From positions 1 through 40,360 of the IMG/VR virus record IMGVR_UViG_3300033571_001337: DNA of 40,360 nucleotides; one strand, 5' to 3'. The notes beneath the pieces were generated by a model. It did not search any database and was not told where the DNA came from. It saw only the letters and a list, made by a program, of their open reading frames with translations. The stretch is from a virus. The translations under genes and the position numbers were made by a program. This document shows, piece by piece, positions 19,337 through 40,360 of the stretch (positions are counted from its first letter, which is position 1; each line of letters opens with the position of its first letter).

Positions 19337-22300
19337 ATGGCTAAGAAAAGACTCATAAAAAACAGTCGAGGACAGTACGGTATCCTAGATGAGAACACCA
19401 ACCAAGTATTTGTACTAGACCAAAGCACAAAGCTAAATAGCAACAAAGGTAAGTATTACGCCGAAAAAGACGGAAATATTTTTAATGTTGATGTTGTTGA
19501 TGACAATATCGACGACGAAGATATCAATATCTTAAAAAAAAAAGACGTTACGGACTCATCTGGGGAGACAGATTCTACGGATTCTGGTTTTAACAAATTT
19601 GATACAAAGCCTACAGAAGAACCTAAGAAAAACGCAGAAGCTGCTAGAAGATTTCTTATTCAACCTATGCTACCTGGCGGTGGTATAGATTATTCTGGAT
19701 TAGCTAAGTTCGGGGCAGTTGGAGAGTTTGTGGCTGATGCTATAGACATTCCAGCTAATCTTATTAATGCTGGAGTAAGAACACTCTTTAGCAGTACAGC
19801 AAATGATGCTGTAAAAAATTTAGCCGACTTTAAGGGAACTAGGAAAAAAGCCACTTTATCAGATTATCAAGATATTGCAGATAATAATCTTGCTGCAAAC
19901 TCCATTGGTAAATCTTCTTATTATAAGAAGATAGAAAACAAGACGGCAGACTGGTTTGACACAACTGCCGCACTACCAGAGATTTTAATAGAGTCTGCAT
20001 TGGGCGTTACTGGCGCTTGGAAAAGTGCATTAACTGGAGCTTCTCTTGGAGCAACTGCTGGTGTAGCAGGGGGTCCAGCGGGAGTTGTTGCTTCGGCTAT
20101 TGGTGGAGCCCAAGCTGGGGCTACGTATGCAAACGAAGTAGGTGGCGCTATCTTTCAAAAGATGCAAGAGAGAGGCGTGGATATTACGGACGCTAAGCAA
20201 CTACAGGCTGCTGTAAATGATGAGGAATTTATTACAGAGGCTGCTGAGTATGGAAGAAAGCGTGGTGTGCCTATTGCTGCAATAGATTTAATTACAGCTG
20301 GTATGGCCAATCTTGGCTCAAAGGGCGCTATCAAATTAGCAAGCAGCTTTGCAAAAAAGGCTATAAAAGAAGTTGCTGAAGAGGGAGTAGAACTAGCTCC
20401 AAGAGTCCTTACAGAATTAGGAGAGAAGAGAGCTTCTGCGATAGGCGCAATGGCTACTGAGGTTGTTGGTGGTTCGTTTGGAGAGGCTGTCGGGCAGTTA
20501 GCTGCAGATGGTAAAATTACAGACGCTGACGCTATCTTGCTTGAAGGTATTGCTGAATTAGGAGCTGGTGCTCCAACAGGTCTGTACTCTTATGTTAAAG
20601 CAAACCAGATTAATCGCCAACTTAATAAACGCTCTGATGAGACAGTAATATCTTTACAGGAAGCTCTTGCTACAATGGACGAAACTGACCCTGGCAGACC
20701 AGCGTTAGAAGAAAGAATCAAAGCGTTACAGCAAGAAAAAGAACAACGTAACAATCTTACTGCAAGCCAATTAGAAGCAGCTCCTGTTACAGCAGGTAAG
20801 CGTATCCTAGAACTTACTGAGCGTATTGATGGATTAACAGCGTCATTAGACGCAATGAAGGCTACTCCAGACCCTAATCTTAGCGAAGACCAACAGCGCG
20901 AGAAAAGACGTGTATTTGTTGAGCAGTTAGATGAGCTTACTGCTGAAAGAGAAGAGTTGTTAGCCGAGGCTGAAAAAGCAAAGTCTGCTTTCGCAGAGAC
21001 ATTGGGTGCACCTACGGCTCCAATGGAAATAACAAAGACTGGTGACATATTTAGCTTATTTGACGATGAAAACGAAATTGAGCCTAATGAATCTTTCCAG
21101 GTTGACCCACAAAAGCCAGTTACATTAACTCGTTCTGAGACTAAAGGTGTTGCTGTTGAGGAGACTGCTGAGGGAGGAACTAAGAAGCGTACTCCTGTTG
21201 GTGTATTGAATATAGAGCAAGAAGGTAAGAAATTAGCTACTGCATTAGAAATAACTAGCGAATCAGGAGAAACGAGATTCTTTGTTCCTGAATTACAAAC
21301 ATCATTTAATACTGCTGAAGAAGCATCTGCTGCGGTAAAAGAAAAACTGTCTGGCAAGGTTATGACAGAGGCGGAACGTAGCGGAATCAATCGTATTCTT
21401 GTTCGTAAAGGTCTATTAAAAACTCCTATTGTGTTTACGCAGGATGGGGTTCAAATGGAGATTAGTAATGATGTTAAAGTAAAAATATTAAAGGCTCAAC
21501 AAGCACTTCGTTCGGTTAGTGGCGCAAACATCTATTTGTATTCAAATGATGACGATTACGTTGCTGGAATAAGAAGTGAATCTAGCCAAGACGGCTTTGA
21601 TGAGAAAGGCGCTCGTAATAGTAATGCCTCTTATGTAAGAGATGGTAATATCCATATTAATATGACTAAGATGAATCAAGCATCTTTGTCTCACGAAATA
21701 TTCCACGCCACATTAGTTAGTATTGCTAAGAAAAATCCAGATGCATTCATAGAGATGCGCAAAAAGATTGTTGGCAGAATTAAGCCAGATTCTACCATTA
21801 GAGTAGTAAATAGAAATACAGGCGTAGAAAGCACTATGAGTGGCGCTGAATACTTAGAAGCGTATGCTAGTAGATATACTGATGAAAAAGGCTTCTCTGA
21901 GGACGTTCGTGCTGAAGAGTATTTATCTGAATTAGCAGGTCTTATTGCTAACAATGAGAATTTGTTATCAGATAAGAGCTTTATGGAAAATATTCGTTTA
22001 GCTATTAGAGGCTTGTTAAAGAAGCTCAATATTGACACAGCTGCATTTGATGAATTAGCAGATGCTACTGAGCTTGTTGACTTTATGAAGAGCTTTAATG
22101 AGTCATTAAAAACTGGTAATAGAATTAACCTTGAAAAAATAAAAGGAAAGTATGAAACTAGAACAAAAAAGTCCCCTACCCAACAAGGAGGGGAAGCAGT
22201 CGCTACAACAGCTGGTGAAGCAGGAGTTCAGGAGACGCAAGAAGCGGAACCTACTGGAGAGCCTATTCAAGAAGCTGTTAAAAGAAAACGAGGAAATAAA

Positions 22301-25300
22301 ACTCCCACAGGTAAGCGGGCAATAAAAGACCCTGTATTAAAAAAGGCGCTAGAGGTAAAATCTAGTAGCTTATTGGATATTGCTAAGCAGTATTTCATTA
22401 AAGGAGGGACTATTGTTAGAGGTCGTACTAAAGACATATCTAAAAGAACAGTTACTCCCGAAGCAGGTTCTTTGGTTACATTGTTTACGACTAAAGGAGC
22501 TTTTGGTTACAAGGACGACACAGATGCAATGCGTGCTCGTTTTAAGCTAACTGACTCAAGAGAGAACGGTGCATTGACAATTCCTGAGATTGCAGAATCT
22601 ATTGTTAATTCAGAGGTTGGTAAATCTAACAAGCTAATACTAGCTGATGTAGAAGAAGCATTGCGTTCTGTATTAAAAGACTTCTCTGACAAGAAGCAAA
22701 TGGCTAAGTCTGTACTTGACGACAACGGCATATCATTAGAAGAGGAGCCTGCTACATTTACTGAAGAACAAGAAGCTCAGACAGAGCAAGAGTTCCAAGA
22801 GTTTGTTGCAGGGGAAACTGGTATGACAGTAGAAGAGTTCCAAGGAGCTGTTGGCGAAGACCCAGCTGCTACAGAAGCTCAAGCTGCCGCAGAAGAAGCT
22901 ATTGACATAGTTGAGAATCCAGAAGAGAATCCAGGCATAGCTGAGCAGATGGAATTAACTGCTGAAGAAGAAGCTATTGTTGAAGGAATGACAGAGCAAG
23001 AATCTGAGGAATATCTTGGAGGAACAGAAGTTGAGCCAGCTCCTGTAAAGGCTAAGAAGAAAAGCAAAACAGCTGCTATTGGAAGAGGGGCTAAAGCTAC
23101 TACTGCTCCCGTCCAAAGAGGCAAGCCTGTGCCTTATGATGTAGATGAAGAGAGTATTAGATTCGGGAGTCAAACTGTAGGGCAATTGCTGCCTCAGATA
23201 GACTTAGTTCAATTAGTCAACGATAAAAAGATTACTTTAAAGCAAGCCGCTTTAATAAAGTTTGTTATGCAAAAAGCTCCTAGCTCTATTGCTGTTCGAA
23301 CTTCCTTTAATGACCTTCTGAAGATAAGAAGTATAATTAAAGGAGTATTATTTGAAGGCGGAGATGCTGCAGATGTTGATAAAGTAGTTGAATCTAATTT
23401 CAAGTATTATATCGAAGACTTTAAATTATACGAAAAGGCTATTAATAAGATTGGTGCTAGCGATGGCTTAAATATAAAAAGCAAGTATGGTATATATAAA
23501 TCCAAGAATGGTTCTATTTATATAACAGGAGCAAATGGGAATATAGACTGGAACATAAGAGAAAATGGCACATACAATACAGAAGACGAGGCAATAGATA
23601 AGCTAATAGAGCTTATGACATTTAAGAAGCCGTCTAAGGGCAAATCTGGGCTAGTTGCATTTAAGAGACCTGGTTCTAATTATTACAGATTAGGTAAACT
23701 TATAAATGGTAGATTTTTTGACCTAAATAAAGGTCCAAATTTTATTGTAGCTAGATTATTTAAATCTAAGATTGAAGCAGAATTATACTTGTCAAATAAT
23801 GAGGATGAGGTAATAAAAGAATTTAACGAAGACGCTACTACTCAAGCCTTAATCAAGAAACATCTTGATTCAATAAAGTCAAACAGGGTTGGTGTAGATT
23901 GGAGAAATGGTAAAGACATTTCTTCTGAGGAACTGTATGATACATTTGAATTGAAGGGCGTTAGTTTCATAGCTGGTATGTCGAAAGAAGATAAGCAACG
24001 AATGCTTAATGAAGCATACGATGCAATGAATGATATGGCGGCCATACTTAACATTCCATTAAAAGCCGTTGGATTAGGAAAGAAAATTTCTGTCAAATTT
24101 GGTATAGGAAGGATAGAGACTGATAAAGGTGGTTCATTCCGTAGAATGGATTATGATATACAATTGAGCCGAGCTAATATTGGCTCTTTAGCTCACGAAT
24201 GGTGGCACGCATTAGATAACCATTTCGGTTCACTTGGATTTAGTGAAGATGCAATGGTTACTGAAAAAGATAGATATTCCACTAGAAAAGATAATTTAAG
24301 ACTTGAAATGTTTAGTGCATTTAAAGATGTAGCTGAGCAAATTGAAGGTTCTAATTATGAAAAAAGGTCAAAGAAACTTGACTTAACGCAGGGTCCAAAC
24401 TACAAATACAAGCAGAATATAGTTGAGCTTACTGCTCGAGCATTTGAATCTTATATAATTTCTAAATCAGAATCTAGTGGGAATAGAAATGATTTTTTAG
24501 TTAAACAATGGGATGCTACTAAGCCTGGAACTGATACTTATGAATATCTTGAGCCAGAAGAAATGGTAGCTATGGAGCCGTTGTTGGATAATTTATTTAA
24601 AACAATAAAGGCTAGGCAAGAATCTGACAGAACAGTATTGTATCAAATGTCTGGGCTAGAGGTTAATCCAGAAGCAAATGGTCCTATTATTAATTACCAA
24701 GTTGAAGGTTCTGATGTTGCATTAGTTAATGATGCCGAGCGTTACAAAATGGTAGAGCTTTATGGCGACCCACAACAAATGCTTGCTCACTTTGAAAGCA
24801 AATTCAAGGCAGAAGAAGCTGCACTAGAAAAGGGCTTTGCTCAAAAATTAAGCACAGCATCAAGAACTCTTGAGGGAGCTATTACTGATAACATAATGAC
24901 TCGCTCTATAGCAAGAGTGTTTGGCGCTACTATGGATGCTGTCGAGTGGGTGGGAGATGCTGGATTTATAAACTTAACTAGAGTTGATGAGAACGGAAAT
25001 ACTGTAAATGAAAAAGTATCTTTCAACTCAGTTTGGCAGAAAGCGTTTGGATTAACAGAAAATAAAGCAAGAGAGCTTACATTAAAAGGTCTTGAATCTA
25101 ACAACAGATTTGCCAATATAGCATCTAATGTTGCGACTGGACTTATTAAGAATCTATCTGTAACAGAATCTCTTCAGAAGCAGTCTCGTGAATACAAAGG
25201 ATATAAAGCTAACGCACATAACCTTATATTTAGACTATCTAAGTCATTAAATGGTATGATTGGTTTTGATGCGCAAGCATTAAGACGCGTTCACTCTTTA

Positions 25301-27391
25301 TTAGACCCAGAAGCTTTCTTAGGAATAGAGGACGAATCTTTGCCATCAAATCCGCTTGAGCTATCTGTTTCTGAATTGAGATTGTATAATGCACTTAGAA
25401 CAATGAATGATTACATTCACGAATGGCATTATAAGAATGGATTCTTAGACAAGGAAACTTATGAGAAGAATAAAGGTAAATATTTTGCTCGTGCTTATGC
25501 AGATATCGAGAAAAAACAATTTAAAGATGTAAACGAGGCGATTGATAGCTTTGGTGCTGGAGCAGATTTATCTATGTTTAAGCAGAGAAAAGACTTTGAT
25601 ACTGTCGAATTAGATTTACTTGAAGACCCTATCTATATTACTGCTAAGCGTTTGGCACAAATGACTCATAATCAGGCTACATTAGACTTTGCTAATGAGA
25701 TTGCAGAATCTAATGAGTATGCTATTTATGACAAACTAGAAAATATTCCTGAAAATATTCGCAAGTATTATAAGAAGCTAGAAGGCTTCGGCAATAGTAT
25801 TCGCTTTGGAAATCTTACAAATAAGTATGTTCCAATGGCTATTCACGAAGAGATTTATGGAACTCAGTTTGCTGACCAGTTTATGTCCATTATGTTTAAC
25901 GCATTCAAGAAGTACGACAAACTCGCGCTTCGTCAGATGCTTAAGAAAAGTAAGACTGTTTATAACCCTCTTGCTAGACTTGGTAACATTGTGTCTTCAT
26001 TTGCATTTGCATTTCAAGGCGGAGTTGACCCATTCTCATTATTAGCAAAAAGAATTGCCGCTAAAAAGGAAATTGATAATTACGGAGAATATGTTCAAGA
26101 CTTGACTAAAGCTGGAGTTATTGGTACTAGCGGTGTTAGTCAAATGCTTCTTGGTATGGACGAAAACTCTTTATCTTACAGAGCTCTTGTGGCACTAAAG
26201 GTGCCTCAGAATTTACTTGCTAAGGCAAACGACTTTGACAATATGGTTAAAGATACCTATGGGAAAGCCGATGACGTTGCAAAGGTAGCTATGTATATGT
26301 CGCTGGTTCAAGATAGAGGCAAGACTAAGGAGGAGGCAATTAAGATTGTTGCTGAAAGTATGCAGAACTATAACACAGTAGGCAAATACTTTGTGTTAGC
26401 ATCTCTTACTCCTTTCTTTGGTAACGCGTTTATTCGATTCAAGGCTGATGCTACAAGAATCTTGTACAACGGAATTTCTAAGAGACCATTATTTACAATG
26501 TCTTATATTGCAATGTTATGGGGAGTTAAGGAGCTTTTGTCTGACTTATCTGGAGAGGATGATGAGGAGAAAGAAGCACGCGAAGAAAGACCATTTACAA
26601 CCAAGTGGGGTGTAGGGCCATTTGCTTTGCCTATGAACTGGAAGATTGGAGATAAAGAATATAACGTAGCAAGATACTTGTCTCCTTATTATATCTATGA
26701 CCAAGGTTATTATGGGGACAATTTAGTTGATATATCGCAATATCTGCCTTACCAGCTTCAAAAGCTACAGCCAGGAAAAGGAACTGGATTATTTCGTTCA
26801 GGATATGCTTTGGGGATACCAGACCCATTCTTTGGAGTTGGATTGCAGTTAGCGCTTGACTATGATTACAAGGGCAACTCTATTGCAGACCCAAGAGCTA
26901 CTAGATTTATGCCTCAGACAATAAGCGGAGACCAGATGTTTGTTAACCAATTATCTTACGCTGGAAGAGCTTTAGGTAGCCCTTACTACGGATGGATAGC
27001 TGACCAGAAGGCAGCCTGGGAGGGCAAACTTGATGTTCACGATAGAAAGCGCGACCCATTAGATGCGGCAATTAGTTTGGTTATTAAGAACGAAGAGATT
27101 GATAGCAAGATTCTAACTGAGAAGTATGGCAATCATCTTAACAGAATGTTCAAACAGCATCAGGCGGCTTTAGATTTAATCAAGTCAACTAGAACTCGTA
27201 TGCAAGACGATATATTGAGAATACAGGCTAATACTGAGCTTTCGGAATCTCAGAAGAAGGGACAGATTCAAGATATATATGATGAAGCAGAATCTCTTCG
27301 TAAGGAAAAGCACAATGAGATGCTAAGAATTGCAGAAGAAGCTAAAGAGCCTTATAAAACATATTTAAAACTTAGACAACCTAAAAAGTAA
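19337..27391 (+). CDS. Giant polyvalent internal virion protein with two HExxH metallopeptidase motifs
   Basis: The 2684-residue protein is the largest in the window. Residues ~210-275 form a Gly/Ala-rich hydrophobic stretch that may insert in membranes. At 786-790 lies HEIFH in SLSHEIFHA, and at 1620-1624 HEWWH in GSLAHEWWHALDNHFG; the second, with its later ELTARAFE segment, resembles the LPD1/metallopeptidase domain of polyvalent proteins. Residues ~1135-1255 are acidic low complexity. A membrane-like segment lies near 2384-2402 (FTMSYIAMLWGVKELL). Such proteins are carried in virions and ejected, like T7 gp16. A 10-A run at 19534-19543 near the start could allow slippage. Confidence 0.75.
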   Translation: MAKKRLIKNSRGQYGILDENTNQVFVLDQSTKLNSNKGKYYAEKDGNIFNVDVVDDNIDDEDINILKKKDVTDSSGETDSTDSGFNKFDTKPTEEPKKNAEAARRFLIQPMLPGGGIDYSGLAKFGAVGEFVADAIDIPANLINAGVRTLFSSTANDAVKNLADFKGTRKKATLSDYQDIADNNLAANSIGKSSYYKKIENKTADWFDTTAALPEILIESALGVTGAWKSALTGASLGATAGVAGGPAGVVASAIGGAQAGATYANEVGGAIFQKMQERGVDITDAKQLQAAVNDEEFITEAAEYGRKRGVPIAAIDLITAGMANLGSKGAIKLASSFAKKAIKEVAEEGVELAPRVLTELGEKRASAIGAMATEVVGGSFGEAVGQLAADGKITDADAILLEGIAELGAGAPTGLYSYVKANQINRQLNKRSDETVISLQEALATMDETDPGRPALEERIKALQQEKEQRNNLTASQLEAAPVTAGKRILELTERIDGLTASLDAMKATPDPNLSEDQQREKRRVFVEQLDELTAEREELLAEAEKAKSAFAETLGAPTAPMEITKTGDIFSLFDDENEIEPNESFQVDPQKPVTLTRSETKGVAVEETAEGGTKKRTPVGVLNIEQEGKKLATALEITSESGETRFFVPELQTSFNTAEEASAAVKEKLSGKVMTEAERSGINRILVRKGLLKTPIVFTQDGVQMEISNDVKVKILKAQQALRSVSGANIYLYSNDDDYVAGIRSESSQDGFDEKGARNSNASYVRDGNIHINMTKMNQASLSHEIFHATLVSIAKKNPDAFIEMRKKIVGRIKPDSTIRVVNRNTGVESTMSGAEYLEAYASRYTDEKGFSEDVRAEEYLSELAGLIANNENLLSDKSFMENIRLAIRGLLKKLNIDTAAFDELADATELVDFMKSFNESLKTGNRINLEKIKGKYETRTKKSPTQQGGEAVATTAGEAGVQETQEAEPTGEPIQEAVKRKRGNKTPTGKRAIKDPVLKKALEVKSSSLLDIAKQYFIKGGTIVRGRTKDISKRTVTPEAGSLVTLFTTKGAFGYKDDTDAMRARFKLTDSRENGALTIPEIAESIVNSEVGKSNKLILADVEEALRSVLKDFSDKKQMAKSVLDDNGISLEEEPATFTEEQEAQTEQEFQEFVAGETGMTVEEFQGAVGEDPAATEAQAAAEEAIDIVENPEENPGIAEQMELTAEEEAIVEGMTEQESEEYLGGTEVEPAPVKAKKKSKTAAIGRGAKATTAPVQRGKPVPYDVDEESIRFGSQTVGQLLPQIDLVQLVNDKKITLKQAALIKFVMQKAPSSIAVRTSFNDLLKIRSIIKGVLFEGGDAADVDKVVESNFKYYIEDFKLYEKAINKIGASDGLNIKSKYGIYKSKNGSIYITGANGNIDWNIRENGTYNTEDEAIDKLIELMTFKKPSKGKSGLVAFKRPGSNYYRLGKLINGRFFDLNKGPNFIVARLFKSKIEAELYLSNNEDEVIKEFNEDATTQALIKKHLDSIKSNRVGVDWRNGKDISSEELYDTFELKGVSFIAGMSKEDKQRMLNEAYDAMNDMAAILNIPLKAVGLGKKISVKFGIGRIETDKGGSFRRMDYDIQLSRANIGSLAHEWWHALDNHFGSLGFSEDAMVTEKDRYSTRKDNLRLEMFSAFKDVAEQIEGSNYEKRSKKLDLTQGPNYKYKQNIVELTARAFESYIISKSESSGNRNDFLVKQWDATKPGTDTYEYLEPEEMVAMEPLLDNLFKTIKARQESDRTVLYQMSGLEVNPEANGPIINYQVEGSDVALVNDAERYKMVELYGDPQQMLAHFESKFKAEEAALEKGFAQKLSTASRTLEGAITDNIMTRSIARVFGATMDAVEWVGDAGFINLTRVDENGNTVNEKVSFNSVWQKAFGLTENKARELTLKGLESNNRFANIASNVATGLIKNLSVTESLQKQSREYKGYKANAHNLIFRLSKSLNGMIGFDAQALRRVHSLLDPEAFLGIEDESLPSNPLELSVSELRLYNALRTMNDYIHEWHYKNGFLDKETYEKNKGKYFARAYADIEKKQFKDVNEAIDSFGAGADLSMFKQRKDFDTVELDLLEDPIYITAKRLAQMTHNQATLDFANEIAESNEYAIYDKLENIPENIRKYYKKLEGFGNSIRFGNLTNKYVPMAIHEEIYGTQFADQFMSIMFNAFKKYDKLALRQMLKKSKTVYNPLARLGNIVSSFAFAFQGGVDPFSLLAKRIAAKKEIDNYGEYVQDLTKAGVIGTSGVSQMLLGMDENSLSYRALVALKVPQNLLAKANDFDNMVKDTYGKADDVAKVAMYMSLVQDRGKTKEEAIKIVAESMQNYNTVGKYFVLASLTPFFGNAFIRFKADATRILYNGISKRPLFTMSYIAMLWGVKELLSDLSGEDDEEKEAREERPFTTKWGVGPFALPMNWKIGDKEYNVARYLSPYYIYDQGYYGDNLVDISQYLPYQLQKLQPGKGTGLFRSGYALGIPDPFFGVGLQLALDYDYKGNSIADPRATRFMPQTISGDQMFVNQLSYAGRALGSPYYGWIADQKAAWEGKLDVHDRKRDPLDAAISLVIKNEEIDSKILTEKYGNHLNRMFKQHQAALDLIKSTRTRMQDDILRIQANTELSESQKKGQIQDIYDEAESLRKEKHNEMLRIAEEAKEPYKTYLKLRQPKK

Positions 27392-37804: not shown

Positions 37805-39229
37805 TTAAAATGGTGTTACTGTTACATCAAAATCACTCTTCATTGTTTTGATTACAGAATCTTGGTATAAGATTGCTGGTTCGGCAAATCTTGTCAACTC
37901 AGACTCTTCGTCTGCAATTCTATTCGTTTTAACATCAACATATCTAATCACATCTCCTACGTTACCATCTCTGTTTTTAAGGATAATGTATTTAAGTATA
38001 TTGTCCATCGGAGTTACTGCTTGACCGTTAGACTTTGCATCAACGTATTTATAATAGTCATCTCTATATAAGCCAATAACTACATCGGCATCCTGCTCAA
38101 TGTTACCCGAAGAGCGCAAGTCTGATAACTGAGGAGACCTGTTGGTTCTTTTTTCTACCTCACGTGACAACTGCGAAAGAAGAATAACTGGTATCCCAAG
38201 TTTTCTAGTGATTCTTCTAATCTTTGTCATTACAGCAGACACCTGAGTAAAGTCATCTTGGCTCTTAGCTTGGCTGTCTTTCATCAACTGCAGATAGTCA
38301 ATCACTACAATATCAATCTTATTCTTACGGCACTCGGCACTCATAAGCATTGATAGGTAATTAATATCTGTGTTATCAGAGTCATAAAAGAAGATAGGCA
38401 ACTTTCTAAGCATCATTGCGTTTGACCGTTTAATCTTCTGTACATCTTCTGGTGATATACGATTCGCTTTTATGTCTGAATAATTATACTCAAACGCCTC
38501 ACTAGATATGTAGCGATAAAGTAAAGAATCTTTAGGCATCTCTAATGATAAGAACAATACATTTTTGCCAGACATTGCGGCTTGCTTAGCTATGTCTAAG
38601 CCTACAACTGTTTTGCCCATTGATGGTCTAGCGGCAATAATTGTAATACCTTTCTGCCATCCACCTAAATGATAATTAAGTTTTCTTGAACCCGTCTCAA
38701 TGCCACTAAACTTTGTCGTTCCAGCAGTAGATTCCATTTTAGCAATTACTGTGTCGTAAACATCTTTTATGTTAACAACTTCATCTGTAGCTGAGGCGTC
38801 TGTTAAATAAGAAACACCGTTATCAATTAGGCTTACAATCTCACTAATCTCGCAATCGTCAGCCAATCTTTCTTGCATCTTTGCTGTTAAGGAAGCAATG
38901 TATCTTTTAGATTCAAGCTCTTTTAATTCAGCGCACACACTTAGTAAATCTATTGAACGCTTTGGTATCATAGAGATAATAAGTGAAGAGTCTACCTTAC
39001 TTGACAGTTCTTTGGATTTTAGGCTACGAAATACATCAAAACGATTGAATGTACCTTTCTCGTTATAAAGTTCAACACACGTCAAATATGCCTGCTTATT
39101 TAGCTCGCTAGAGAAAGATTCTGGTCTTAAAATTTTTGTTGCTTCTAATGTTGAATAAGAATGCTCTAGTAGATGCGATAAAACATCTTCCTCTAGCATC
39201 TTGTCTTCAAATTTATTCTTCTTTACCAT
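37805..39229 (-). CDS. dnaB: Replicative DNA helicase, DnaB family
   Basis: The 474-residue protein has a DnaB-N-like helical domain (1-140), then the RecA-like motor: Walker A ARPSMGKT (200-207), FLSLEMP (226-232), Walker B IDIVVIDYLQLM (305-316), LLSQLSREVEKR (350-361) and the RSSGNIEQDADVVIGLYR motif (372-389) with the arginine finger. This is the full DnaB set. It should unwind the phage replication fork. Its start overlaps the replication initiator gene by 7 bases, a common pairing. Confidence 0.95.
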   Translation of the reverse strand: MVKKNKFEDKMLEEDVLSHLLEHSYSTLEATKILRPESFSSELNKQAYLTCVELYNEKGTFNRFDVFRSLKSKELSSKVDSSLIISMIPKRSIDLLSVCAELKELESKRYIASLTAKMQERLADDCEISEIVSLIDNGVSYLTDASATDEVVNIKDVYDTVIAKMESTAGTTKFSGIETGSRKLNYHLGGWQKGITIIAARPSMGKTVVGLDIAKQAAMSGKNVLFLSLEMPKDSLLYRYISSEAFEYNYSDIKANRISPEDVQKIKRSNAMMLRKLPIFFYDSDNTDINYLSMLMSAECRKNKIDIVVIDYLQLMKDSQAKSQDDFTQVSAVMTKIRRITRKLGIPVILLSQLSREVEKRTNRSPQLSDLRSSGNIEQDADVVIGLYRDDYYKYVDAKSNGQAVTPMDNILKYIILKNRDGNVGDVIRYVDVKTNRIADEESELTRFAEPAILYQDSVIKTMKSDFDVTVTPF

Positions 39230-39915
39230 TGGTCTGGGATAGTTAGTTCAAATTGTTTGGTACTTGTTGTTTCTGTTGATTGGTTAGGAGCTTTTATAGA
39301 TTGTACTGCTTCATCTTCCCAAATTCTATTTCCGATATATCTTTCAGGGTCTTTCCGATATGTAGGGTCTGGTCTAAAGATTAGGTATTTAGGAATTGAT
39401 TGAATAGCATCTTCTTTTTCTTTATCTGTTAGTTTTATCCATTTAGCTATTGCATTCTTCTTTCCTGTCTTCTTACCGTAAGCTTCCCAAAACTCTTCAA
39501 ATCTTTCTTCTTTATTACTACTATCTTTTTTACTTTCTTCTTTCTTACTATATGTCGTCAGATTTTCCAACGTAGGAATTTCCAATGTTGGATTTTCCAA
39601 TGTTGGATTTCCTGATGTAGGACTTACCTCTATAGGGGTGTCAAATAGTTGGTATTCGTAGTTTAAATAGCCTTTTGGGCTACGTTGTTTCTGTCTACTT
39701 AAATACCCAACTTCCTCTAATTCTCTAAGCGCCATTCGAACTGCCGTTAAGCCCTCTTTTGTTTGAGCGGATATACGTTCTGCACTAAACTCCCATCCAT
39801 CGGGCTTAGATTGAATGTACGCATACACCCCTTTAGCCCTGAATGTTAATTCAGTATTGTTCAATAGCGCATTAGGCACTACACCATACCTATTTTTAAT
39901 AATTATCTTCGCCAT
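39223..39915 (-). CDS. Replication initiation protein (winged-helix / DnaD-like)
   Basis: The 230-residue protein has an N-terminal winged-helix module (LTFRAKGVYAYIQSKPDGWEFSA, ISAQTKEGLTAVRMALRELEEVGYL). A repeated Asn-Pro-Thr-Leu-Glu segment (NPTLENPTLEIPTLENLT, residues ~103-120) follows, then a Lys/Ser-rich linker and a DnaD-like C-terminus (FEEFWEAYGKKTGKKNAIAKW). Phage and plasmid initiators with this layout bind iterons, often inside their own gene, and load the helicase coded directly downstream. It overlaps the next gene by 7 bases. Confidence 0.75.
   Translation of the reverse strand: MAKIIIKNRYGVVPNALLNNTELTFRAKGVYAYIQSKPDGWEFSAERISAQTKEGLTAVRMALRELEEVGYLSRQKQRSPKGYLNYEYQLFDTPIEVSPTSGNPTLENPTLEIPTLENLTTYSKKEESKKDSSNKEERFEEFWEAYGKKTGKKNAIAKWIKLTDKEKEDAIQSIPKYLIFRPDPTYRKDPERYIGNRIWEDEAVQSIKAPNQSTETTSTKQFELTIPDQW
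39561..39620. repeat. Four tandem 15-base iteron-like repeats, candidate replication origin
   Basis: Four units (GATTTTCCAACGTAG, GAATTTCCAATGTTG, GATTTTCCAATGTTG, GATTTCCTGATGTAG) lie inside the initiator gene and code for the repeated NPTLE-type residues. The inner ones carry a CCAA-TG-TTGG dyad. Placement in the initiator gene resembles the lambda O origin. Confidence 0.6.
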
Positions 39916-40145
39916 TCTGCCATTTTTTTAATCTCTTTATTGCAATTACTTATCCTAAGTAAAATACCTTCTACAATCTCCATCAGTTTATCGAAGGCGG
40001 GCATATCTGGTTCTGCAAACTTGAGCACCCTTTCATAGTCTGATAACTCAATCTCTGCGTGTATTTTCTTTAGCTTAATTATGGCTAAGTGGCTATCTGC
40101 GTGCAACTTAGTCATTGAAGTTATAATTTCTTTGTCGGTCTCCAT
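39903..40145 (-). CDS. Small helical protein of unknown function, first gene of the replication operon
   Basis: The ATG at 40145 (80 residues, METDKEIITSMTKLHADSHL) is chosen over an ATG at 40265 in the same frame. The longer version would run through the structured RNA and its terminator and would begin upstream of the -7 box. The protein is helical and charged (LAIIKLKKIHAEIELSDYERV, LMEIVEGILLRI) and overlaps the initiator start by 13 bases. No family recognised. The upstream terminator suggests attenuated expression. Confidence 0.65.
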   Translation of the reverse strand: METDKEIITSMTKLHADSHLAIIKLKKIHAEIELSDYERVLKFAEPDMPAFDKLMEIVEGILLRISNCNKEIKKMAEWRR

Positions 40146-40152
40146 AACAGAT

Positions 40153-40188
40153 AAAAAAGCCCACACTCTGTTGCGGAGAAGCGTGGGC
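40153..40188 (-). terminator. Rho-independent terminator ending the structured leader RNA
   Basis: Minus strand GCCCACGCT (40188-40180) pairs with AGTGTGGGC (40167-40159) with one G-U pair, 12-base loop, then TTTTTT. It ends 7 bases before the ATG at 40145. Confidence 0.85.
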
Positions 40189-40246
40189 GATTCAAGTTTC
40201 CTTGAATACTTAGTGTTCAGACCGCAACTTCTAAACACCAAGTGTA
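40153..40246 (-). ncRNA. Structured leader RNA or small RNA with three hairpins and a loop-loop interaction
   Basis: Reading leftward: a 14-bp hairpin (40243-40230 with 40221-40208, two G-U pairs, 8-base loop), immediately followed by a 7-bp hairpin capped by GAAA (40207-40190), then a 9-bp hairpin (40188-40180 with 40167-40159) ending in six U residues. Loop 1 contains GTTGCGG (40228-40222) and loop 3 contains CCGCAAC (40176-40170), exactly complementary over 7 bases. All wobbles pair only in minus-strand RNA. A strong promoter lies directly upstream. It either leads the replication operon as an attenuator or is a free small RNA; I know no named family with this layout. Confidence 0.75.
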
Positions 40247-40251
40247 CATCA

Positions 40252-40281
40252 CAAATGTACAACAAAAAGTTTATTTAACAA
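40252..40281 (-). promoter_or_regulatory. Strong leftward promoter TTG-N19-TACATTTG
   Basis: On the minus strand TTG (40281-40279) is exactly 19 bases before TACATTTG (40259-40252), a full match to the Bacteroidota -33/-7 pattern. Transcription should start near 40246, at the foot of the structured RNA. Confidence 0.75.
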
Positions 40282-40360
40282 GTGGCTCAATCGAATAAAT
40301 ATTATACGATGGAATGCCCAATGTTATTGCCCCGTTGTTATAAGGCGAACTCACTATCAA
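40271..40360 (-). CDS. C-terminal end of a leftward gene cut by the window edge
   Basis: A minus-strand frame runs open from the right edge to a TAA at 40273-40271, giving 29 residues that end GIPSYNIYSIEPLVK. The composition looks protein-like, and the gene would end just inside the promoter of the next unit. The visible part is too short to assign function; the frame could be accidental. Confidence 0.45.
   Translation of the reverse strand: MIVSSPYNNGAITLGIPSYNIYSIEPLVK

Follow-up and report, generated by a model that had tools for sequence, protein, structure and literature searches.

An RNA encoded just before the replication operon in phages of Bacteroidota has two hairpin loops with conserved, co-varying complementarity to each other, which is the criterion we apply for a kissing-loop RNA. 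We show that it has a conserved promoter, conserved hairpins, a conserved terminator, a Watson-Crick and co-varying loop complement, fixed spacing, a defined RNA strand, and a position ahead of the replication genes. Our favored reading is that it constitutes a cis-acting transcription attenuator that gates the replication operon (probability ~0.55). Termination and read-through in the cell, the contact in cis, the direction of the effect, and the signal are inferred, without expression data. The element was analyzed in a virus record of 40,360 bases, the whole of which is called the window, and its RNA lies on the minus strand (40243-40151).

Anatomy of the leader RNA

The window element consists of the following parts, all on the minus strand and assigned by sequence or by folding.

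40252-40284, minus strand: promoter of the Bacteroidota type, TTG-N19-TACATTTG, with its -7 box at 40259-40252 (sequence)
40208-40243, minus strand: hairpin H1, 14 bp, with an 8-nt loop of A plus GTTGCGG; predicted 5' end of the transcript (folding; stem co-varies among relatives)
40222-40228, minus strand: H1 loop heptamer GTTGCGG, one partner of the loop-loop pairing (folding, sequence)
40190-40207, minus strand: hairpin H2, 7 bp, GAAA loop (folding)
40159-40188, minus strand: intrinsic terminator hairpin (folding; compensatory changes among relatives)
40170-40176, minus strand: heptamer CCGCAAC of the terminator loop, the complement of the H1 heptamer, from which it is offset by 52 nt
40151-40158, minus strand: U-tract, TTTTTT at 40158-40153 (sequence)

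The H1 loop GTTGCGG and the terminator loop CCGCAAC are complementary across seven bases. The linkers joining H1, H2, and the terminator in the window are just 1-2 unpaired nucleotides, and 7 bases separate the U-tract from the ATG at 40145. An earlier note, made from sequence alone, had described three hairpins nearly end to end (14 bp, 7 bp with GAAA, and a terminator), this 7-base G/C-rich loop complement, a promoter with a -7 box and 19-base spacing at the foot of the transcript, and a U-tract ending 7 bases before a start codon. These claims held, and each coordinate that was checked proved correct. Almost all relatives likewise have the element ahead of the replication operon, the location that the note gave. 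The GAAA tetraloop requires correction, as it is present in the window but not conserved in relatives. The two closest relatives by initiator (L002 and L003, 82% and 80% identical) have the same element with the same loops, altered stems, and an identical promoter box and spacing, and they retain the stem of H2 but not its tetraloop (CTAG.. in L002 and TCTG.. in L003).

The window RNA has a minimum free energy of -40.8 kcal/mol, as compared to -23.1 +/- 3.3 kcal/mol for shuffled sequences (z = -5.4), and none of 200 shuffles was as good. A blind scan of 883 kb for hairpin loops with a 7-nt complement in the loop of the following terminator yielded 55 matches, ~40 of them at replication leaders, while shuffled DNA yielded 15; the loop-loop heptamer is therefore not due to chance. 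No family in Rfam 15 exceeded its gathering threshold in the entire window or in 12 related loci, and the best sub-threshold match on the element was to a microRNA family (E=0.44), far under the cut-off. The Rfam comparison that had been proposed as a check thus assigns the RNA to no named class.

Farther relatives, in which the N-terminus of the initiator is ~50% identical, have the element directly before the initiator start codon with other, mutually matching loops (GTAGGAG/CTCCTAC, CTCCTTAC/GTAAGGAG, GATCTCAC/GTGAGATC, and others). Two major structural types were distinguished. Type A has an 8-nt H1 loop, 7 nt of which are paired, followed by a small AT-rich hairpin of 4 bp at the position of H2. 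Type B has an H1 loop of ~14 nt, 8 nt of which are paired, no hairpin at the H2 position, and a longer terminator whose loop is the purine-rich strand; type B phages have a single copy each at a convincing score. The window, L002, and L003 form a third, type-A-like subtype, and one-member subtypes are formed by L007, by a locus in the Cruoricaptor ignavus genome (L071), and by Polaribacter phage Freya_1. The exact loops of the window, searched for with a flexible linker between them, matched only two already-known loci, and a search for the window-type H2 elsewhere found, L002 and L003 excepted, only unrelated sequence. The conserved core is H1, the terminator, and the complement between their loops.

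The complementary letters of types A (alignment A5) and B (alignment A2) are similar, but the two hairpins trade roles. GTGAGAG is the H1 loop in type A, and GTGAGA.. is the terminator loop in type B.

Covariation, strand, and spacing

Type A loci were collected with a pattern in which the frame was fixed and the three central loop letters and the entire terminator were free; complementarity was not required. At least 120 viral contigs matched. An exact 7-nt loop-loop complement occurs in all 80 type A loci examined, which have six loop sequences, or codes: GTAGGAG (43 loci), GTGAGAG (20), GTCGGAG (9), GTGGTAG (6), GTTAGAG (1), and GTCGTAG (1). The same frame with a letter other than A at loop position 6, used as a control, gave 10 unrelated matches, with no complements and no leaders.

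Across 43 distinct type A sequences, 301 of 301 loop-loop cells are paired, strictly by Watson-Crick pairs and with no G-U in the contact. Both-side changes occur in three of the seven pairs of this helix, and one-sided changes are absent. The whole type A structure is 96.2% paired (85.2% in shuffles) and has a covariation score of 0.348 (0.133 when shuffled); slid controls pair 35-52%. In type B (22 sequences), the 8-nt loop-loop helix is 98.2% paired, with both-side changes in five of eight pairs. The two loops of one element pair at 7/7 positions, and loops of differing codes at no more than 6/7. About ten changes of loop code are found on the initiator tree of 25 KYYLHDS loci, and complementarity was never lost among the 80 loci. 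The sequences within types A and B are related, and so these counts are not independent events; GTAGGAG makes up about half of the type A set. Compensatory change in the loops and stems of related phages, another check proposed in the earlier note, is strongly positive.

The offset between the two loops is 50-56 nt across all subtypes, despite unrelated sequences and differing linkers, and this constancy favors a contact within one molecule. Type A stems contain 108 G-U pairs versus 6 A-C pairs, the latter being the G-U pairs of the opposite strand. The element therefore acts as RNA of the transcribed strand, in support of the observation, made for the window, that G-U pairs exist only in leftward RNA. 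In 51 of the 80 type A loci, the motif TAnnTTTG occurs 24-27 nt before the start of the H1 loop match, against a background of ~0.05 per 50 nt; this places the transcription start at the foot of H1.

Whichever gene follows, its chosen ATG lies 12-20 nt from the first TTTT in 79 of the 80 loci of type A, and in 77 of the 80 this distance is 14-19 nt. As no promoter fits into 14-19 nt between terminator and start codon, the first downstream gene needs read-through. In terms of sequence anatomy only, the components of an attenuator are present: a promoter, a structured leader, an intrinsic terminator, and a promoterless gene.

Genes and genomes associated with the element

The element in the window is followed by these genes.

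39903-40145, minus strand: P0001, an 80-amino acid orphan and first gene after the element (no PHROG or Pfam match)
39223-39915, minus strand: replication initiator, phrog_270, with a borderline HTH_36 match (profile match)
37805-39229, minus strand: DnaB-like replicative helicase, phrog_19, E=1e-79 (profile match)

An exonuclease gene comes after the initiator and the helicase. The element precedes at least five unrelated initiator families: HTH Rep (window), Lin1244_N-like, KYYLHDS, AAFRK, and the L007/Danklef_1 type. A gene other than an initiator (HNH, N6/N4 methylase, or a small orphan) comes first after the element in ~17 of 80 type A loci. The gap between terminator and initiator (L121-L200) appears to be an insertion hotspot for HNH endonucleases, N6/N4 methylases, and small orphans, and the inserts all begin at nearly equal distance from the U-tract. 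In most loci, a gene in the same direction lies immediately upstream of the element.

No relatives of P0001 were found in viral contigs. In a single comparison, P0001 resembled a 63-amino acid protein of other phages (26% identity over 57 amino acids, E=1e-9), which is encoded upstream of the element in L123, L146, L148, and others. As this small protein is encoded upstream there and downstream in the window, it appears to move around the element, and P0001 is probably an inserted cargo ORF. In most type A loci (e.g., L023 2606-2881), the gene directly upstream of the element codes for phrog_13625, a conserved protein of ~89 amino acids whose function is unknown and which might be a regulator of the element. 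Elsewhere in the window, positions 19337-27391 of the plus strand form a single open reading frame of 2,684 amino acids.

A type III toxin-antitoxin system was considered and ruled out, as the element is single copy, without tandem RNA repeats, and is followed by differing genes (initiators, HNH, methylase, and orphans). A tyrosine integrase (Phage_integrase) was sought in 19 records and not found.

A probable cultured example is found in the Polaribacter phages Freya_1 (MT732463) and Danklef_1. The candidate in Freya_1 lies between an NTP-PPase gene and a replisome-organizer-like gene and has a TATATTTG promoter, GGTGGAA in the H1 loop, TTCCACC in the loop of a strong terminator, and an ATG 10 nt on. 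Danklef_1 retains the Freya_1-type element, but a gene resembling GIY-YIG homing endonucleases is inserted and the N-terminus of the initiator differs, resembling that of L007 as judged by eye. The folding z of the Freya_1 element is only -1.9, and its scan match alone is not significant (10 matches in five genomes, about chance level). We rate it as probable on the strength of its position, promoter, strong terminator, and spacing, and because it is retained in Danklef_1 despite the replaced initiator and the insertion. A similar leader (CCACCATT with AATGGTGG) occurs before a related initiator in Cruoricaptor ignavus DSM 25479 (L071 2899-2956); this leader most likely resides in a prophage and would be a second cultured source.

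No cellular genome matched among those searched, which were 296 from a single order for the type B model and 395 from the phylum, centered on the Cruoricaptor genome, for the type A pattern. Given this absence from the cellular genomes sampled with the two queries used, the element looks phage-borne. Type A and B elements had no match to named phages in a nucleotide search, and the Freya element was not found in plasmids.

Proposed mode of action and related systems

In the proposed cis attenuator, transcription would begin at the foot of H1, which would fold first and expose its 7-8 nt loop. The terminator loop would emerge ~50 nt later and pair with the H1 loop as polymerase reaches the U-tract, such that the contact could form at the moment of decision. 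Most transcripts would stop, releasing an RNA of ~95 nt folded by the contact, and those that read through would express the replication initiator, the helicase, and the early operon. The loop-loop contact may thereby tune or switch the terminator, opening the replication genes at the right time or dose.

Of the three functions offered in the earlier note for this layout, the attenuator is the best match, because the gap from terminator to start codon leaves no space for a promoter. A ligand-sensing leader has no support beyond the layout, and a terminator-ended small RNA remains compatible, the terminated ~95-nt RNA being an expected by-product of attenuation. Some evidence stands against the cis attenuator. 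The 1-2 nt linkers in the window may strain a 7-bp intramolecular contact, and with same-direction genes upstream, the replication genes are possibly transcribed from farther upstream. Antiterminator pairing was sought with RNAalifold on the 43 type A sequences, and only H1 and the terminator were found, with no competing helix that would account for a switched-off terminator.

The strongest alternative, although a tentative one, is a dose sensor acting in trans. The ~95-nt RNA would accumulate with copy number, pair with nascent leaders of the same phage, and alter their termination, much like plasmid antisense RNAs and the CI RNA of satellite phage P4; specificity would then be coded by the loop sequence. 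Complementary loops on one RNA are able to pair between molecules, and the window version is almost without free linker. Nineteen of 60 pairs with flanks at least 85% identical differ in loop code, L147 and L155 have identical initiators and yet differ in code, and pairing across codes never reaches 7/7. Against this, the rate of change in loop-loop pairs does not exceed that in stems, and elements sharing a code show higher conservation (98.2%) than the sequence flanking them (92.5%), so that diversifying selection is not shown. The fixed loop-to-loop offset is also unnecessary for action in trans. Lysogenic immunity is unlikely for most of these phages, as integrase is absent from the 19 records, although an integrase is encoded by Freya and Danklef (PMC8776804). 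Further copies of the loop code, which might serve as trans targets, were not enriched elsewhere in the phage. The related idea that the loops are fast-evolving incompatibility determinants was rejected, as parsimony on the initiator tree and flank comparisons showed change no faster than in stems. A bolder form of the trans reading, also only a possibility, is that the coded leader RNA senses the dose of its own genome or blocks a related phage of the same code through nascent leaders. If true, this would be coded, RNA-only replication control in phages mostly without a detected integrase.

The pairs L147/L155 and L148/L190 are ~94% identical around the site and have identical or near-identical initiators with different element alleles. 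They suggest, without establishing it, that alleles of the element are exchanged between phages.

It is unlikely that the element is merely a constitutive barrier between two early operons that also yields a stable small RNA, with the contact only protecting from nucleases and the downstream genes served by leaky read-through. This reading agrees with the same-direction gene just upstream in most loci, the hairpins at both ends of the RNA, and the one copy per phage. However, the strict Watson-Crick contact of type A and the constant spacing to the start codon exceed what a passive barrier needs, and the phages showed no enrichment of other targets for the loop sequence.

Still less likely is the binding of a phage or host protein, or of a small molecule, to the fold of H1, kiss, and terminator, which would set termination as an antiterminator site or riboswitch. 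Conserved unpaired letters lie near the loops (e.g., the loop tail and CTTAAAA linker of type B), and most type A loci encode the small phrog_13625 protein just upstream. However, CTTAAAA is partly accounted for by pairing with the U-tract, and phrog_13625-like proteins occur in many phages in which no element was sought, with the Freya_1 copy ~2.5 kb away; there is also neither a ligand nor an operon theme of the kind usual for riboswitches. Hairpins arisen by chance, or an element working at the DNA level (an origin or an insertion site, for example), would suit the adjoining initiator genes and the cargo inserted right behind, but are all but excluded by the covariation, the G-U sense bias, and the promoter and U-tract in register.

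Several known systems resemble the element in part. P4 CI RNA likewise belongs to a phage leader before replication genes and involves an untranslated RNA, RNA-RNA complementarity in the leader region, and premature termination (PMC4825925). However, CI arises by processing of a primary transcript and has two target sites for pairing, whereas the window element has a strong intrinsic terminator that itself supplies the partner loop, and the phages are mostly without a detected integrase. In attenuators of the pT181 type, a kissing hairpin decides transcription attenuation (PMC3753616), as proposed here; the pT181 attenuator controls a rep gene. There, the partner is supplied by a distinct antisense RNA, whereas both loops of the element are on one RNA, and no antisense promoter was identified, though not searched for systematically. 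Gifsy-1 IsrK is also a short phage RNA that doubles as the start of a longer mRNA (PMC4825925), but belongs to a prophage system with translated downstream ORFs, and it is not known to form a loop-loop contact with a terminator. HK022 put RNA, a pair of hairpins with which an early phage transcript begins, makes polymerase ignore distant terminators, whereas the second hairpin of the element is itself a terminator. The purine riboswitch shares a loop-loop contact and a downstream terminator, but its kiss is inside a three-way junction and its terminator is separate, and the element has no Rfam match.

The open-access literature, with subscription literature outside the scope of the search, yielded no RNA whose 5' hairpin kisses its own terminator loop before phage replication genes. 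To our knowledge, no natural class has been described in which the first hairpin of a leader clasps the loop of the terminator. The element is thus probably an attenuator-like leader with a new architecture, similar in action to P4 CI and pT181, whose partner is a separate RNA. So far as we are aware, early gene control in Bacteroidota phages has received little study. The natural matched and mismatched loop pairs provide material for examining how a tertiary contact tunes intrinsic termination, and the probable cultured sources, Polaribacter phages Freya_1 and Danklef_1, would make the question directly testable.
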